A stretch of DNA of 36,840 nucleotides, from positions 1 through 36,840 of the forward strand of contig NZ_CAMZCS010000031.1 in the NCBI RefSeq assembly GCF_947305105.1. The letters are read 5' to 3'. The DNA is from an uncultured Fibrobacter sp. Its GTDB lineage: Bacteria > Fibrobacterota > Fibrobacteria > Fibrobacterales > Fibrobacteraceae. The position numbers and the translations under genes were made by a program. Shown piece by piece: positions 5,282 through 36,840 of the stretch. The notes beneath the pieces are model-generated. The model saw only the letters and a list, made by a program, of their open reading frames with translations. It searched no databases and was not told the DNA's origin. Within the stretch, counting starts at the first letter, position 1. Each line of letters begins with the position of its first letter.

Positions 5282-6637
5282 TTACGGCTTCGCAATGCGG
5301 AACACCTGACGCGCTCCGGCACGAGTCGCCACGACGTAGTAAACGCCGGGATTCAAGCGCGAAAGATTGAGCGTGGAGGATTTCATCACGAGCGTTCCGT
5401 CAAGCGAGAATACTTTGTACGTAGTCGGACCGGAAACGACAGAGCGCATGGCGGGGAGTGCAGCAGCAGAATCGCCCGTTGCAGGAGGAGCCGTCACCGT
5501 AGAATCGCCCGTTGCTGGCGGCGTTGTCGTCGGCGGAGTCGTCGTAGAATCACCCGTCGCAGGAGGCGTTGTCGTGGGCGGAGTCGTCGTGGAATCACCT
5601 GTTGCAGGAGGCGTTGTCGTGGAATCACCTGTTGCCGGCGGAGTCGTCGTAGAGTCACCCGTTGCAGGAGGAGCCACCGTCGCGGCAGCAGCCTTGGCTT
5701 CGCGGGCCTTGTCCAGGAAGGCAACAGCCTTGCTCAAATTCTCGGACGAGTTCATCACGTTGCCGCCATGGGAGCCCCCCGAGACCTTGACAAATTCCGT
5801 TACCACATTGTGCTTCTTGAGGGAATCGTAGAGTTCCTGGCTCTGTTCGATGTTGACGATGTTATCGGACGTACCGTGGAACATAATTACCGGAGGATCG
5901 TCGTCGCTTGCGTAGTAAGGCGAACTGGCGACCATCCACTTGTCCTTGTTGCCTTCGCGTTCCACGCCGATAAAGGCACCTTCCATTGTTCCAGAGCCGC
6001 CCATACTGATGGGATTCATCGTGTAGATGTCGGTCGGAGGAGACCAGAGCACTGCACCGTCAACGCAGCTGCTAAGCGAAGTGAACTCGCCGAGGTCACC
6101 GACCAGGTCAACCGTCACCGAGCCGGACTTACCTTCCTTCAGGCCGCAGGTCGTCGCAGTAAGGCTAGAAAGGTGACCGCCCGAAGAGAACCCGGACACG
6201 GCCACAAAATTCGTGTCAAACTTGTACTTGGCCGCATTGCCGCGGACGAAGCGCACCACGGCCTTGATGTCGTGCAGTTGCGCCGGATACTTGGCATCGC
6301 TTGCCGAACGATGGTTCGGAGTCACCACAGCGTAGCCCGCCTTGGCATAAGCCGCACAGATGGTGCTCAAGTCCGCGGAGCCTTTCATGTTATTGCTGCT
6401 CCAAGCACTGCCGTATGTGTGGATGACCACCGGATACGATTCCTTAGCCTGCTTGGGAATATAAATGTCCAGCGTATGATAGGTTTTTCCGTCACCCACG
6501 TAGTTCACGTCGGCAGTCTTGTCGGCATCTGGAACACTGCCGCCACCCTGAGGGCCTCCGAAACCGCCAAATTGGGCGAATGCGGAAACCTGGAAAAATA
6601 AGGATAGAGCCACCGCCCCGATAATTTTCTTTTTCAT
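5282..6637 (-). CDS. Secreted alpha/beta-hydrolase carbohydrate esterase with Thr/Pro linker and sorting-like C-terminus
   Basis: A 451-residue exported esterase, most like BD-FAE/acetyl-xylan-type alpha/beta hydrolases that remove acyl groups from plant polysaccharides. Signal peptide residues 1-21 (ends AFAQ). The catalytic domain spans about 45-312: an oxyanion region at HTYGSAW (73-79), nucleophile Ser151 in GFSSG, Asp257 in HGTSD and His289 in GGSHGG. Residues 320-390 are a linker with six copies of PPATGDS. The last about 45 residues (YKVFSLDGTLV ... GVYYVVATRAG) resemble type IX secretion type A sorting domains, suggesting surface delivery; that is an inference. The start ATG at 6635-6637 opens an MKKK signal sequence. 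The exact substrate cannot be told from sequence. Confidence 0.8.
   Translation of the reverse strand: MKKKIIGAVALSLFFQVSAFAQFGGFGGPQGGGSVPDADKTADVNYVGDGKTYHTLDIYIPKQAKESYPVVIHTYGSAWSSNNMKGSADLSTICAAYAKAGYAVVTPNHRSASDAKYPAQLHDIKAVVRFVRGNAAKYKFDTNFVAVSGFSSGGHLSSLTATTCGLKEGKSGSVTVDLVGDLGEFTSLSSCVDGAVLWSPPTDIYTMNPISMGGSGTMEGAFIGVEREGNKDKWMVASSPYYASDDDPPVIMFHGTSDNIVNIEQSQELYDSLKKHNVVTEFVKVSGGSHGGNVMNSSENLSKAVAFLDKAREAKAAAATVAPPATGDSTTTPPATGDSTTTPPATGDSTTTPPTTTPPATGDSTTTPPTTTPPATGDSTVTAPPATGDSAAALPAMRSVVSGPTTYKVFSLDGTLVMKSSTLNLSRLNPGVYYVVATRAGARQVFRIAKP
5468..5680 (-). repeat. In-frame tandem repeat coding the esterase linker
   Basis: About 210 bases encoding six PPATGDS units spaced by 10, 10, 15, 15 and 11 residues, with Thr/Pro spacers. 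Individual copies differ by synonymous changes (gttgcagga, gttgccggc, gtcgcagga), so the array is not a very recent duplication. Repeat number is likely to vary between strains. Confidence 0.85.
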
Positions 6638-13033: not shown

Positions 13034-13045
13034 AAGCACTCCTTG

Positions 13046-13080
13046 CAGTAGGAAGTAGGAAGTAGACAGTAGACAGTGGT
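13046..13080. repeat. Heptad repeat array A (five units)
   Basis: Exactly five contiguous 7-base units of the type [AC]AGTAG[GA] (CAGTAGG, AAGTAGA and similar; the last is CAGTGGT). It occupies almost the whole spacer between the coaX stop (13085-13087) and the ribosome binding site of the UDP-xylose synthase gene. The same units recur at 17322-17447, 20250-20284 and after 36608. Confidence 0.9.
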
Positions 13081-13084
13081 AAAA

Positions 13085-16457: not shown

Positions 16458-17321
16458 CTAGATTCGCATCGAAATATCGAGTGCTTTCACGCTATGCGTA
16501 AGCGCACCGACAGAGATGTAGTCAAGGCCGAGCGTCGCGATTTCCTTCGCACGTTCAAGCGTCATGTTGCCGGAACCTTCCACCAGGCACTTGTCGCCGC
16601 TTTCCTTGATAATCTTGAGAGCCTCGGCCATCATCTCGTTGCTCATGTTGTCGAGCATGATGACGTCCACGCCCTTGTTCAAAAGTGCGCGCAACTGGTC
16701 GAAGTTTTCGACTTCCATTTCGACCATCAGGTTCTGCGTGTTGTTCTTCTTCACCACTTCGAGCGCCTGGAGCACACCACCCGCAGCAGCGATGTGGTTA
16801 TCCTTCACGAGCACCATGTCGAAAAGGCCCATGCGATGGTTGGAACCGCCACCCACCCGCACCGCATACTTCTGCAGCGTACGGAAACCGGGAACCGTCT
16901 TGCGCGTATCGAGCACCTTCGTCTTGCCACCCTTCAAAGCTTCCTGGAAGGTATGTGCAACCGTTGCCACGCCGGAGAGTTGCTGGATGAAGTTCAAGAG
17001 AGTGCGTTCACCCGTCAAAAGTTCGTGCGTCGTGCCGTCCATTTCGGCAATCAGGTCACCCTTCTTCACCACGTCACCGTCTTTCTTGTGGAGTGTCACC
17101 TTCACATTCGCCTTGAGTTCCTGGAACACGAGTTCAATCACCGGGAGGCCGGCAAGCACACCGTCTTCCTTGGCAATCAGGCGGGCATGCTGCTTTTGGT
17201 CGGCAGGGATGGTCCACTCGCTCGTGACATCACCCGTGCGAACATCTTCCGCCAAGGCAAGGCGGATCATAGTCAAAGCATCTTCGGTAGGGAATTTGGG
17301 AGTTGAGTTATCGCCGTACAT
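16458..17321 (-). CDS. nadC: Nicotinate-nucleotide pyrophosphorylase (quinolinate phosphoribosyltransferase)
   Basis: A 287-residue enzyme that makes nicotinate mononucleotide from quinolinate and PRPP in NAD synthesis. Family hallmarks: EDVRTGDVTSEW near residue 25, GERTLLNFIQQLSG, LDTRKTVPGFR, KYAVRVGGGSNHRMGL, LVKDNHI, MLDNMS and SVGALTHS. Length is standard. The ATG at 17319-17321 is followed upstream by a heptad-repeat array that begins at the very next base, so there is no recognisable ribosome binding site; how translation starts is unclear. No nadA or nadB is near. Confidence 0.94.
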   Translation of the reverse strand: MYGDNSTPKFPTEDALTMIRLALAEDVRTGDVTSEWTIPADQKQHARLIAKEDGVLAGLPVIELVFQELKANVKVTLHKKDGDVVKKGDLIAEMDGTTHELLTGERTLLNFIQQLSGVATVAHTFQEALKGGKTKVLDTRKTVPGFRTLQKYAVRVGGGSNHRMGLFDMVLVKDNHIAAAGGVLQALEVVKKNNTQNLMVEMEVENFDQLRALLNKGVDVIMLDNMSNEMMAEALKIIKESGDKCLVEGSGNMTLERAKEIATLGLDYISVGALTHSVKALDISMRI

Positions 17322-17447
17322 GGTTAGTGATTGGTGGTTGGTGGTTGGTGGTTAGTGGTTAGTGGTTAGTAGGAAGTTGGAAGTTGGATGTAGGAAGTTG
17401 GAAGTTACTGTCTACTGCCTACTGTCTACTGCCTACTGTTTTCTGTT
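17322..17447. repeat. Heptad repeat array B (18 units, orientation switch)
   Basis: Eighteen contiguous 7-base units with no phase slip. Seven are GGTTAGT or GGTTGGT type (17322-17370), five are AGGAAGT or TGGAAGT type (17371-17405), and six are TACTGTC or TACTGCC type (17406-17447). The last group is the reverse complement of the GACAGTA units seen in array A, so the array changes orientation at 17405/17406. It fills the whole gap from the base after the nadC ATG to the TAA of the sugar transferase gene. Confidence 0.93.
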
Positions 17448-18897
17448 ACTGCGCTCCTTTTCCGGTCAGCACCACATATACGGTTCGAACCAGAATCTGG
17501 AAATCAAGCAGCAGGCTCATATTCTCGTAGTAATACATGTCGTACTGCAACTTGATTTGCACATCCTCGATGCTCGTATCGTAATGGTGACGCACCTGAG
17601 CCCAGCCCGTGAGGCCCGGCTTCATCTTGAGGCGGCTGATGTAGAACGGAATCTTTTCGCGGAGCTTGCCAATGAACACGGCACGTTCGGGGCGCGGGCC
17701 GACCATGCTCATGTCGCCCTTGAGCACACAGAAAATCTGCGGGAGCTCGTCGATGCGGGTTTTACGCAATAACTTGCCCACCTTCGTGATGCGCGGGTCG
17801 TCTTTGGTGGCCCACTGCGCACCAAACTTTTCGGCATCGGTACGCATGGTGCGGAATTTATAAACCGTAAAGGGCTTGCCGTACAAGCCGATACGTTCCT
17901 GCGAATAGAACACTGGGCCACGGTCCTCGAGCTTGATGGCGATGGCCGCCAAAATGCAAACCGGCAGCGAGCACAATCCCAAAAATGCACCAAATAAAAT
18001 ATCGATAATGCGCTTGACCTGCACTTGCCAAGGCGGCATCGTAAAGGCAAACAGTTCCTGCAATTCAAAGCCATAAACAAGATTCGCCTTGAACTGGCCA
18101 TTCACCACACCATAAAGTTCCGGGACAATGTAAATATGGAGAGGCAGTTCACAAATCCACACGAGCACGCGCATGATTTCTTGCGGAGAGGCACTATCGT
18201 GAGCGATGATGATGCCACTGACCTTGTACTTTTTGACTAAAGCCGGCAAATCCGAATACTTGCCCAATACAGGATAACCCGCAAATTCGTGGTCCATCAC
18301 TTGGAAGCGTTCATCGACAAAACCAATGACCCGCTGGCCACGCGCCGGAGTCTTGGCAAGAGACTGTGCAATCTTTTGCCCCGCTTCCGTCGCGCCAAGA
18401 ACCAGAATGTTATTCGCACCATAACCTAGGCGCAAAAAACCGCGCAGGCACCAGTAGATAACCATGCGGAATCCGGCAACCAACGTAAGGGCAAGGCCGC
18501 CATAAATAAATATCCACGGGAATCGCGAACCGTAAAGATAGCCCTCGCTCAATGGAGAATTGGCAAAGACCTTCCCGACAAATTCCGCACCAAACAGCCC
18601 GACAATGACAAGCACAATACCCAGAGCGACGGCGCGAAGCACCCTCAGAATCTGGTGGGTACGGGACATCAAAAGCCAGGAACGGTACAAGCCCGCACAA
18701 GTAAAGAGCAGGAGCCAGCCCAAGTTGAGGACAAGGCCCATGAACCAATATTCAGCAAACGTCTTGCTCGGATCAAACTTATCCGCAATCCAACCACTAT
18801 GAAACTGCACCCAAAAGGCCAAGGCGAAACAAATCGACAAGGCTGCAAAGTCCGAAAGGACTAAGAGGATTCGTTCCAATGTGGTCGCGCGGATCAT
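17446..18897 (-). CDS. Polyprenyl glycosylphosphotransferase (WbaP/EpsE-like sugar transferase)
   Basis: A 483-residue inner-membrane enzyme that transfers a sugar phosphate to undecaprenyl phosphate to start polysaccharide assembly. About four to five N-terminal membrane helices (residues 8-165) are followed by a nucleotide-binding-like region (ILVLGATEAGQKIA near 178) and a further helix with the catalytic bacterial sugar transferase domain (from about 290): FYSQERIGLYGKPF, VYKFRTMRTDAE, RKTRIDELPQ and GDMSMVGPRPE are all present. The domain order is that of full-length WbaP-type enzymes. It follows hom by only 20 bases, an unrelated neighbour but probably the same transcript. The TAA stop is built into a heptad repeat unit. 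Confidence 0.9.
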   Translation of the reverse strand: MIRATTLERILLVLSDFAALSICFALAFWVQFHSGWIADKFDPSKTFAEYWFMGLVLNLGWLLLFTCAGLYRSWLLMSRTHQILRVLRAVALGIVLVIVGLFGAEFVGKVFANSPLSEGYLYGSRFPWIFIYGGLALTLVAGFRMVIYWCLRGFLRLGYGANNILVLGATEAGQKIAQSLAKTPARGQRVIGFVDERFQVMDHEFAGYPVLGKYSDLPALVKKYKVSGIIIAHDSASPQEIMRVLVWICELPLHIYIVPELYGVVNGQFKANLVYGFELQELFAFTMPPWQVQVKRIIDILFGAFLGLCSLPVCILAAIAIKLEDRGPVFYSQERIGLYGKPFTVYKFRTMRTDAEKFGAQWATKDDPRITKVGKLLRKTRIDELPQIFCVLKGDMSMVGPRPERAVFIGKLREKIPFYISRLKMKPGLTGWAQVRHHYDTSIEDVQIKLQYDMYYYENMSLLLDFQILVRTVYVVLTGKGAQ

Positions 18898-20249: not shown

Positions 20250-20339
20250 AATTAGTCGTTAGTGGTCGGTGGTTGGTGGTTTGTAATAACGACAAAAAAA
20301 GCAACTATCCTGTTTGCTGACCACTGCATATCAACCACT
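20250..20339. repeat. Heptad repeat array C with inverted remnants
   Basis: Five contiguous heptads of the GGTTGGT type occupy 20250-20284 (for example CGTTAGT, GGTCGGT, GGTTTGT). After 34 bases come GACCACT (20319-20325) and AACCACT (20333-20339), reverse complements of such units and spaced by exactly one heptad. The region lies between the divergent hom and sugar transferase genes. Confidence 0.8.
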
Positions 20340-35449: not shown

Positions 35450-36003
35450 GCCAGTTCAACAGCCAGGCACATTGCGACATCCCTCGCACCGATCAAGTTC
35501 GGAGCGAGGCTTTTTGCGTCGAGATCGACCAAGTGGACGCCATCAACGACATCGGACAACATGGAGCAGCGGAGCGTTCCCGCAAAAAAGTCCCCGCCGT
35601 GGCACTTGTAATAAGCCTCCTTACGGCACCATAGGCGGAAGAATTCGCTGTCGAAATGTTGGGTTCCGAGCAAGTAGGAGACTTCTTCTTCACTGAAGAA
35701 CCTTTCGGCGAGCGACTGCCTGTTTTTACGGAAGAATTCAAGGTCCAGGCCAACCATGGCGTCAAACGAATAGGCCAGTGCGCACACATCGCCAGAATGA
35801 GTCCAGTTGGCATCAAAATCCTGCTCCGGGAAAAACGGGCGCGGAGAATCAGGATTCACGACCATGTCCGCTTGCGAGACCTTCTTGCCGCAAGCAGCCG
35901 AGAGAATTTCAAAAATACGTTCGCGATGACCACGACGCCCCTCCGTCGGAAACACTGTAACAAAAACATCCCCACAGGGCGTGAGTATTTTAGTTGACTT
36001 CAT
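35446..36003 (-). CDS. 4'-phosphopantetheinyl transferase (Sfp-type)
   Basis: A 185-residue enzyme that loads coenzyme A-derived phosphopantetheine onto carrier proteins of fatty-acid, polyketide or peptide synthases. The signatures are intact: VGLDLEFF (metal-binding GxDxE), RFFSEEEVSYL and LWCRKEAYYK (WxxKEAxxK). It is short for Sfp proteins (about 220), nearer the compact members. Two ATGs six bases apart are possible; AGGGA on the minus strand is well spaced for the one at 36001-36003 and too close for 36007-36009. The carrier-protein partner is not in the window. It diverges from a small lipoprotein gene with only 29 bases between the starts. Confidence 0.88.
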   Translation of the reverse strand: MKSTKILTPCGDVFVTVFPTEGRRGHRERIFEILSAACGKKVSQADMVVNPDSPRPFFPEQDFDANWTHSGDVCALAYSFDAMVGLDLEFFRKNRQSLAERFFSEEEVSYLLGTQHFDSEFFRLWCRKEAYYKCHGGDFFAGTLRCSMLSDVVDGVHLVDLDAKSLAPNLIGARDVAMCLAVELA

Positions 36004-36032
36004 CTCCATTCCCTAAAGATAATTTCTACTTT

Positions 36033-36539
36033 ATGGATATGCACCGCCTAGTCCGAAATTTATCCGCCATATCCACCCTTTTTTTTCTCCTTGGCTGTAC
36101 CGATATCAACGACAGCTGGGAAGTCAAGGGAGGCGGCTACTTCAAGTACACCGTTAACGGCGGGAAATCATACACTATTGAGCTTGATGCAGATGACGTT
36201 ATCCGCCCCGACTACGGGCGCAGCTATTTCCAAGTGCAAACCCGGATGGACGAAAGCAGCCGAGGGGACCAGTTTTCCATCGTCGTAAACCGCCCCGTCC
36301 TTGGGTACAACGATGCCGACCCCAACTACAGCTGGATGATTGCCGAAAGGTCTGAAAAAGGCTACCTTGTCGGTGACAGCAACATTGTCCACTTTGACCA
36401 AAAAGACAACGACTCCACGTGGACAGCCAATATAGATCTCTATTTCCAAGATTGCCGGAACGGAGACTGCGAAAGCGATCGCAAGCCCCTACACATTGAA
36501 GGGAGACTGCGCTACTGGATTGCGGAGGATGATAGATGA
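36033..36539 (+). CDS. Small lipoprotein of unknown function
   Basis: A 168-residue predicted lipoprotein: hydrophobic segment 9-20 and lipobox LLGC with Cys22. The rest is a polar, beta-rich domain (YFKYTVNGGKSYTIELDADDV, SYFQVQTRMDESSRG, WTANIDLYFQDC) with a second cysteine pair (FQDCRNGDCES). I recognise no family. The ATG at 36033 or one 6 bases later could be the start; an in-frame extension to 35994 would overlap the divergent transferase gene and is unlikely. The stop at 36537-36539 is followed at once by the repeat-rich region. Confidence 0.68.
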   Translation: MDMHRLVRNLSAISTLFFLLGCTDINDSWEVKGGGYFKYTVNGGKSYTIELDADDVIRPDYGRSYFQVQTRMDESSRGDQFSIVVNRPVLGYNDADPNYSWMIAERSEKGYLVGDSNIVHFDQKDNDSTWTANIDLYFQDCRNGDCESDRKPLHIEGRLRYWIAEDDR

Positions 36540-36686
36540 GGTCGCTGAGCTTTGAGGTCGCTCCCTTCGGGAGCTTCGAGGTACGAGGTCGGTCGCTACG
36601 CTCCCTTCGAGGTGTGAGGTAGATAGTGGTTAGTAAACAGTGGTTGGTGGTTAGGGAATATAGACGAGAGAAAGTAGGAAGTAGGA
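36539..36686. repeat. Repeat region D: GAGGT-type units and heptads
   Basis: Starting at the stop codon of the small lipoprotein gene, GAGGTCGCT occurs twice, CTCCCTTCG twice and TTCGAGGT twice, with a perfect hairpin GCTCCC-TTC-GGGAGC at 36560-36574. From 36608 to 36656 seven heptads run in phase (CGAGGTG, TGAGGTA, GATAGTG, GTTGGTG and others), turning from GAGGT units into the heptads seen elsewhere. Further AGTAGGA units lie at 36672-36685. Confidence 0.85.
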
Positions 36687-36808
36687 CAAATGCGTAAGGC
36701 GAGCGCCGCGGTCAAGCTTGCTTGAACATGGCCGAGCCGAGCATTTGGTACTTGAGCTATACGAAACTTGGCAATTTATTGCCTTAGTTGAGTTATCCTC
36801 TATGAGGA
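36687..36808. other. Structured intergenic element with cloverleaf-like fold and two further hairpins
   Basis: CAAATGC (36687-36693) pairs with GCATTTG (36741-36747). Inside are three self-complementary pieces: GGCG/CGCC (36698-36707), TCAAGC/GCTTGA (36712-36725) and GGC/GCC (36730-36738). Outside follow GGCAA/TTGCC (36770-36783) and TCCTC/GAGGA (36796-36808). Loops are too small and wrongly sized for a tRNA. It is embedded in the repeat region and could be a mobile palindromic element or an RNA. Confidence 0.5.
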
Positions 36809-36821
36809 GTAGCGAGAGTAC

Positions 36822-36840
36822 AAGTAGACAGTAGGAAGTG
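36822..36840. repeat. Start of a further heptad array, cut by the window end
   Basis: AAGTAGA and CAGTAGG units in phase, identical to units of array A, continuing to the last base of the window. Confidence 0.75.

Follow-up and report, generated by a model that had tools for sequence, protein, structure and literature searches.

A composite seven-base repeat array at a stop codon of an uncultured Fibrobacter genome is an ordinary copy within a genus-wide intergenic class

The repeats at positions 36537-36657 of the window (the whole stretch of DNA analysed, 36,840 nucleotides, which is all of contig C31 in a rumen Fibrobacter genome of 3.57 Mb and 72 contigs, here called the own genome) form the left end of a composite array that is intergenic and noncoding, and this array is an ordinary copy within a class of 7-bp repeats found across the genus. 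The reading preferred for the class as a whole, and judged moderately probable, is that arrays arise or lodge at stop codons, change length in steps of 7 bp, have their blocks shuffled between sites, and persist as tolerated filler. The original prediction had seen here GAGGT-type repeats that pass without a phase break into GATAGTG/GTTGGTG heptads, directly after the stop codon of a putative lipoprotein gene, and had proposed for the two types a shared origin and growth outward from stop codons. That the repeats are real can be read in the sequence itself. Genes were called with a script of our own, and start positions are unsure; the small open reading frame that ends at the repeats gave no Pfam match, and an Rfam scan of the window at gathering thresholds returned zero matches. 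The parts of the region are the following.

35994-36539, plus strand: small open reading frame (the putative lipoprotein gene), whose TGA stop codon at 36537-36539 opens the first GAGGT unit, TGAGGT
36537-36608, plus strand: GAGGT block, with GAGG at 36538, 36554, 36578 and 36585 and hairpin-like inserts between
36560-36574, plus strand: mini-hairpin GCTCCCTTCGGGAGC (GCTCCC-TTC-GGGAGC) within the GAGGT block, read from the sequence, with related inserts in other copies
36585-36613, plus strand: module GAGGTCGGTCGCTACGCTCCCTTCGAGGT, one of the 47 own-genome matches to the pattern GAGGTCGG-N7-16-TTYGAGG
36609-36657, plus strand: seven units in one 7-bp register, GAGGTGT GAGGTAG ATAGTGG TTAGTAA ACAGTGG TTGGTGG TTAGGGA
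36629-36650, plus strand: dispersed core of fixed unit order, GTTAGTAAACAGTGGTTGGTGG, with 26 own-genome copies at up to two mismatches
36658-36840, plus strand: rest of the composite to the contig end, with blocks of CGAGAGA and of AGTAGGA among other dispersed sequence

The motif GAGG starts at 36538, 36554, 36578, 36585, 36609 and 36616, and with spacings of 16, 24, 7, 24 and 7 the GAGGT part is not a single regular array. Identity at lag 7 was 0.42 over the whole of 36537-36656 (47 of 113 positions against 31.1 in shuffles, with none of 2000 shuffles as high) and 0.56 over 36609-36656 (23 of 41 against 13.7 expected from shuffles; P about 0.001), whereas the stretch 36537-36608 taken by itself gave a non-significant 0.35 (23 of 65 against 17.4; P 0.08). 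The passage into heptads without a phase break is thus limited to the last GAGGT units and the heptads from 36609 on, and does not extend to 36537-36608. In the module at 36585-36613 the insert belongs to the GGTCGCTACGCTCCC type, in which stem bases 3-5 do not pair. In relatives the composite stops before a tRNA-Val(gac) gene, and here the contig ends short of that gene. Contigs C11, C35, C39, C51, C52, C57 and C63, together with the window at 36690-36840, end in matches to the composite or at most a few hundred bases from one, so that arrays at such ends are shortened and copy counts may be lower bounds.

What follows the stop codon of the small open reading frame varies among relatives. The tRNA-Val(gac) gene lies within roughly 60 to 85 bp of the end of the reading frame in G018, G064 and G068, and several hundred bases further downstream in G013 and G047. 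In G013 the stop is followed by a GAGGT block and then CGAGAGA units, in G047 by a GAGGT variant, then AGTAGGA units, then GTGATTAG units, and by our own reading the register breaks where the blocks of these two genomes join. A different array, of CTAGGAT type, runs from the same stop codon in G008. The stop is TGA where GAGGT arrays follow and TAG where the CTAGGAT array follows, and the protein end is identical or nearly so in relatives, whether an array is present or absent.

Both parts of the composite are dispersed. The 151 bp around 36537-36657 found 62 matches in the own genome at E values up to 10, 53 of them below 0.01. The core GTTAGTAAACAGTGGTTGGTGG, at up to two mismatches, is present in 20 copies in G013, 18 in G047 and 31 in G006, besides those of the own genome, and in 0 to 5 copies in the remaining nine of the 13 genomes searched, with its reversed control absent from all 13; at many places its non-identical heptads recur in the same order. 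The pattern GAGGTCGG-N7-16-TTYGAGG reaches 61 matches in G047 and has at least one in each of the 13 genomes, while the reversed controls gave none in the own genome and 0 or 1 per genome over the 13. Between GAGGTC and TTTGAGG many copies carry a mini-hairpin as insert, and the stems of these vary. After 8 of 64 copies lacking a CC end had been excluded, stem bases 3-5, a range picked once the stems had been seen, were complementary in 35 of 56 copies and in 6 of 12 distinct arm pairs, against a shuffled mean of 1.1; since the best of 2000 shuffles also reached 6 arm pairs, these paired changes amount to support and fall short of proof. With stem bases 3-6 as the range, complementarity was found in 7 of 52 copies and, among distinct arm pairs, in 2 of 15, where shuffles averaged 0.97.

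The two repeat types do occur together elsewhere, as had been expected: GAGG lay within 25 bp upstream of the core at 10 of 30 cores whose loci had been fetched by the core pattern alone, compared with 6.1% of 53,220 intergenic 25-mers, and at 1 of 4 cores in the C1 to C3 sample. Loci fetched with the composite itself gave 12 of 20, a biased set, and a pooled count of 20 of 48 mixes these sources, composite-query loci included. The proposal that the two types share an origin is nevertheless not supported, for the modules are separable, other blocks are joined to GAGGT in G013 and G047, and the core has a fixed order. The sequences fit GAGGT and GTTGGTG blocks acting as joined modules, not one unit drifting into the other, and the GTTGGTG core looks as if it had been copied in ready-made, which would make it an exception to growth in place. 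The seven-base units carry too little signal for a meaningful unit tree. A second dispersed palindrome type, TTGTCATTGCGAAGGGCGAAGCCCTGAAGCAATCTC, adjoins several heptad arrays (loci L002, L008, L011, L012 and L018); sequences similar to it also occur in other phyla. A third dispersed unit type, AAATATCACGGCTTCGCCGTCTTATATTGACGCACGAAGTGCGTGATTCTTTT, follows CTAGGAT-type heptads and contains small hairpins (L016, L021 and L022).

The class to which the composite belongs was surveyed in two samples, one of 713,611 bp from contigs C1 to C3 of the own genome, with the window excluded, and one of 680,000 bp from genome G049. Intergenic arrays of period 7 numbered 64 in the former and 39 in the latter, against 0 to 4 and 0 to 5 for each other period (12 periods between 4 and 17, with 14 excluded because it is twice 7); four of the own-genome arrays, for which no gap could be assigned, were removed, leaving 60. 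Tandem units, over-representation and intergenic position, the marks of heptameric simple sequence repeats, were accordingly found in both samples. The arrays comprised 29 consensus units in the own sample and 22 in G049, with just AATGTGT common to both, and in a search of 41 genomes the pattern GTTGGTGGTTAGTGG, at up to one mismatch, ranged within the genus from 0 to 118 matches per genome, which indicates that single unit families rise and fall quickly.

The arrays have a polarity. Adjacent pairs within one gap, read on the plus strand of the own sample, ran G-rich then C-rich in ten cases, C-rich then G-rich in one, both G-rich in two and both C-rich in one, and all six pairs in G049 ran G-rich then C-rich. 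Within 60 bp of a stop, 24 arrays were G-rich and 8 C-rich on the coding strand in the own sample, with a weak 12 against 8 in G049, so that the exceptions with a C-rich coding strand make up 8 of 32 and 8 of 20 arrays, respectively; within 60 bp of a start, 23 were C-rich and 1 G-rich in the own sample, and 23 and 5 in G049. The placement published for other heptamers, G-rich coding strand near stops and G-rich antisense strand near starts, is thus found here as well, weakly on the stop side of G049. A palindrome of G-rich then C-rich arms is the same on both strands, and this single rule also yields the published strand pattern at stops and starts.

An excess of arrays next to stop codons, on which growth outward from stops depended, is present. 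In the own sample 20 of 68 stop-facing sides had the array edge within 5 bp of the stop (5.0 under the null), and in G049 13 of 32 did (4.4); in neither case was any of 2000 random placements as high. Start-facing sides gave 6 of 52 in the own sample (3.6 under the null, P 0.11) and 8 of 46 in G049 (4.9 under the null, P 0.04). Because a tolerant edge window could favour matching stops, the test was repeated with sites selected by the bases from +3 onward only. Of 1004 gene ends in the two samples, 39 then had an array directly behind the stop; periods 5, 6, 8, 9 and 10 gave 0 or 1 each. At lags 7 and 14 the stop codon itself had identities of 0.53 and 0.54, compared with 0.20-0.35 at lags 4-6 and 8-10. 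The last sense codon showed no peak, with 0.30 and 0.32 at these two lags and 0.25-0.34 elsewhere, and the two codons before it gave 0.38 and 0.30 at lag 7. At that lag the first stop base matched at 12 of the 39 sites, the second at 22 and the third at 28. At least two of the three stop bases matched at lag 7 in 23 sites and at lag 14 in 22, with counts of 0 to 11 for every other lag between 4 and 17, and dealing the stops to other arrays among the 39 sites gave P 0.0005. In the remaining 16 sites fewer than two stop bases match, which indicates that lodging after a pre-existing stop also occurs. For start codons with upstream arrays the sites were too few, 9 of 859 ATG starts, with an ATG identity of 0.52 at lag 7. 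At four sites compared, each with array-less relatives, the protein end is kept or nearly so, and the notion that arrays truncate genes by bringing their own stop is ruled out at these four. Growth outward from stops is therefore supported with respect to place, to register and, at one site, to growth, with the GTTGGTG core exempt; as the GAGGT block next to the stop at 36537 is not significantly 7-periodic, the evidence for growth comes from other sites and not from that one.

The site at which array length differs by whole units, and a second that bears on the origin of a unit, are these.

C1:126281-127417, minus strand: TGT gene (Pfam), with an array of [CG]AGTT[AG]T units downstream
C3:103299: junction at a Y-family polymerase gene (Pfam)

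The array at the TGT gene opens with the stop TAG in five genomes and ends at a shared right flank. From stop to flank it holds 23, 19, 15, 6 and 6 units, in lengths of 161, 133, 105, 42 and 42 nt. The array is missing from genomes G064, G018, G049, G076, G061 and G042, whose protein ends match or nearly match those of the carriers. The C3:103299 junction holds a GTGGTTA palindrome in G000 and G013 and TTGATGA arrays in G049, G068 and G018. The TTGATGA-type arrays (L348, L350, L352, L353 and L355) sit at the position of TGATTGATAATTAT or ATGATTGACGATTAC in array-less relatives, sequences that span a stop/start junction there. It is suggestive that the TTGATGA unit appears as if it had been copied from the native junction sequence; G042, which has TTGATAA and no array, speaks for such an origin in place, and the presence of the unit family elsewhere in G049 speaks against it.

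Turnover could be followed at the second site named by the original prediction, where a sugar transferase gene ends. This junction and two further arrays of the window are listed below.

16458-17321, minus strand: quinolinate phosphoribosyltransferase gene, called NadC-type (Pfam)
17322-17445, minus strand: 124-bp heptad element, which fills the gap from the sugar transferase stop to the NadC-type start
17446-18897, minus strand: Bac_transf sugar transferase gene (Pfam), stop codon at 17446-17448
13043-13082, plus strand: AGTAGGA/AGTAGAC heptad array, 2 bp off the stop of a minus-strand gene
20251-20285, plus strand: heptad array of GTTAGTG/GTTGGTG type, with divergent genes on either side

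The sugar transferase stop lies inside a repeat unit, as had been read: the sequence runs T-AACAGAA-AACAGTA-GGCAGTA, with the last two stop bases in the first unit. The element is made up of an AGTAGGC/AGTAGAC arm followed by a CTTCCTA/CTAACCA arm. Relatives of the sugar transferase were found at 77 loci, 61 of them in Fibrobacter, Fibrobacteraceae, Fibrobacterales or Fibrobacteria records, the closest with 99% identity over 483 residues. The junction was compared in 62 genomes. In 19 of them stop and start overlap (18 TAATG, 1 TGATG), 38 carry inserts, and 5 outgroup-like genomes, classed as short by eye, have only a few bases. The 38 inserts fall into 16 clusters at 72% identity, some of which are visibly related, such as E11 and E15, and the insert state requires 33 changes on the gene tree, where the least possible is 17. 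In the sister genomes L191 and L192 the gene is 97.5% alike and the inserts differ. Over the 37 distinct inserts, with near-identical ones counted separately, mean identity was 0.48 at lag 7 and 0.25 to 0.27 at lags 5, 6, 8 and 9. Homologous transfer alone is rejected as an account of the elements that recur here, since between the E04 carriers L192 and L209 the flanks show no unusual likeness. In the E00 carriers L183, L201, L202 and L220 the 150 bp immediately downstream are 0.91-0.97 alike compared with 0.76-0.90 for the genes, and homologous transfer may thus explain some cases only.

On the preferred reading, short 7-bp repeats would lodge, or presumably arise in place, where the last sense codon meets the stop codon, and the stop would often serve as the first triplet of the first unit with the protein unchanged, as the register and the kept ends in the sequences indicate. 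Arrays would lengthen and shorten in whole 7-bp steps, a step size seen at the TGT gene, with replication slippage as the probable means. Ready-made blocks with inverted partners, G-rich arm first and C-rich arm last, would be shuffled between sites and between related species; dispersal and turnover are observed, and the shuffling presumably proceeds via recombination. The most likely role of the arrays would be none of their own, that of filler tolerated where it is harmless near a gene. It can be rationalized that gene ends tolerate such filler because the arrays carry stop triplets and their paired arms can fold between cistrons.

It is unlikely, although the best of the alternatives, that a transposase moved the arrays as nonautonomous insertion elements (MITE- or REP-like palindromes) which target gene ends and whose internal structure is made of the heptads. 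The dispersed copies of fixed unit order would be expected of such elements, as would the 19 overlapping junctions where other genomes hold an insert, the inverted arms with their mostly constant polarity, and the many insert clusters at one junction that differ even between the L191/L192 sisters. However, neither a common terminal sequence nor a target duplication was seen by eye among the nadC-junction inserts, inverted arms being present, and at the TGT gene the copy changes are whole 7-bp units counted from the stop. REP/BIME and MITE palindromes are dispersed, intergenic, self-complementary and situated near gene ends. The Fibrobacter arrays differ from them in a 7-bp tandem structure and in that no constant ends were seen by eye at the nadC junction. 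Mobilisation of the REP type, which combines a constant palindrome with a REP-associated Y1 transposase, is rejected, as PF01797 has no match in the own genome in a search that covered the Y1 family only and in which 5 of 14 control genomes matched.

The folding of the arrays bears on a further alternative, to which a rather low probability is given, namely that they have been selected as RNA elements, either hairpins or protein-binding repeats, through which the expression of neighbouring genes is coupled, insulated or terminated. Among the 37 distinct nadC-junction inserts, 28 fold at z <= -2 relative to dinucleotide shuffles, related inserts being counted repeatedly, and the two halves of an insert pair with each other at 0.21 compared with 0.146 for halves of other inserts, with 0 of 5000 permutations as high (14 cluster representatives, two clusters under 60 bp being excluded). 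Per 7 nt, the arrays hold more stop triplets than column-permuted units do, with 0.74 compared with 0.54 on one strand and 0.44 compared with 0.19 on the other (63 arrays), and the paired changes of the mini-hairpins, with the shuffle maximum noted above, point the same way. Complementarity between the arms of a pair exceeded that of other pairs when both genomes were pooled (16 pairs, P 0.001), and was non-significant within each genome alone (P 0.12 and 0.08). Against selected RNA elements stand the overlapping junctions, the further five with a few bases only, and inserts that differ between sisters; moreover, 9 of the 37 inserts, E03 and L199 included, miss a z of -2, and whole gaps in the own genome show no folding excess, the median z being -1.42 for 26 tandem gaps with heptads and -1.43 for 132 without. 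This equality also weakens the fold part of the preferred reading. The gap-folding and stop-triplet counts include the window and were made on an earlier gene set than the period, edge and register counts.

Similarly doubtful is a further reading in which arrays are started at the stop codon by a translation-linked process, for example from an mRNA or single-strand end at a paused ribosome, and the same start point would be reused across lineages with whichever heptad is currently favoured. Such a start would explain the repeats at the stop boundary, the kept protein ends at four sites and the 16 clusters at one junction. Plain microsatellite slippage in neutral intergenic DNA, with a polymerase that favours 7 bp and no link to stop codons, is very improbable: a survey cited in the available part of PMC4679880 has heptanucleotides as the top long repeats in most genomes, with polymerase slippage proposed, and the whole-unit length differences at the TGT gene agree with this, but slippage predicts neither the stop-codon register nor the G-then-C polarity, nor an edge excess at stops compared with a weak excess at starts.

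Heptamer repeats are known from Xanthomonas, Nostoc and Beggiatoaceae; what is new and testable here is the stop-codon register and the rapid turnover. Rehm et al. (2015, PMC4692102) described G-rich heptamers, GGGAATC in Xanthomonas and GGGGAYT in Nostoc PCC 7120, and in the available part of their account these resemble the Fibrobacter repeats as 7-bp intergenic arrays with a G-rich coding strand near stops and a G-rich antisense strand near starts. Some of them overlap the stop codon, inverted pairs occur in Xanthomonas, and few lie between divergent genes. On the other hand, that part of the account presents one G-tract unit type per organism, for which G-quadruplexes were argued, in contrast to the 29 and 22 units found here, and loci more stable than controls, in contrast to the quick turnover of the Fibrobacter nadC junction; the stop-codon register found in Fibrobacter is absent from it. 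Four G-tracts of three or more G were present in 1 of 60 own-genome arrays and in none of 39 in G049, which sets the Fibrobacter arrays apart from the G-quadruplex heptamers, and with almost no arrays carrying these G-tracts, the G-quadruplexes argued for would not be the general reason for the placement rule.

TAACTGA was reported as direct repeats in marine Beggiatoaceae, Cyanobacteria and Bacteroidetes (MacGregor 2015, PMC4679880). As far as the available part of that account goes, these share with the Fibrobacter repeats an intergenic heptamer unit, stops in three frames of one strand and an overlap with the end of the upstream gene, and also 7-nt indels between close strains and relatives without obvious repeats. 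Those of the main Beggiatoaceae genome lie mostly just upstream of starts and have one unit, whereas Fibrobacter has a stop excess and many units. Tandem TAACTGA occurs in 1 of 60 own-genome arrays, the stop-anchored array C1:126119-126277, and in 0 of 39 in G049, and by unit and start position the arrays fall outside the TAACTGA class.

Several intergenic heptamer families per genome are also found among the cyanobacterial STRR repeats. For Fibrobacter, no heptad arrays appeared in the titles and abstract openings among the literature matches listed, which lay mostly outside subscription journals and are weak evidence of absence. The available parts of PMC4692102 and PMC4679880 leave standing the questions of why the unit has seven bases and why gene ends are preferred. 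With many unit families, a second species whose units are nearly disjoint, junctions both empty and filled, and an array that varies by whole units, origin, growth and loss become testable by comparison. If arrays truly start at stop codons, the end of translation would be linked to the birth of repeats. We know of no previous link of this kind.

A coding tandem repeat was also observed in the window, at 5498-5673 within the minus-strand open reading frame 5282-6637, with units of 15, 30 and 45 bp (GGAGTCGTCGTGGAATCACC and so on).
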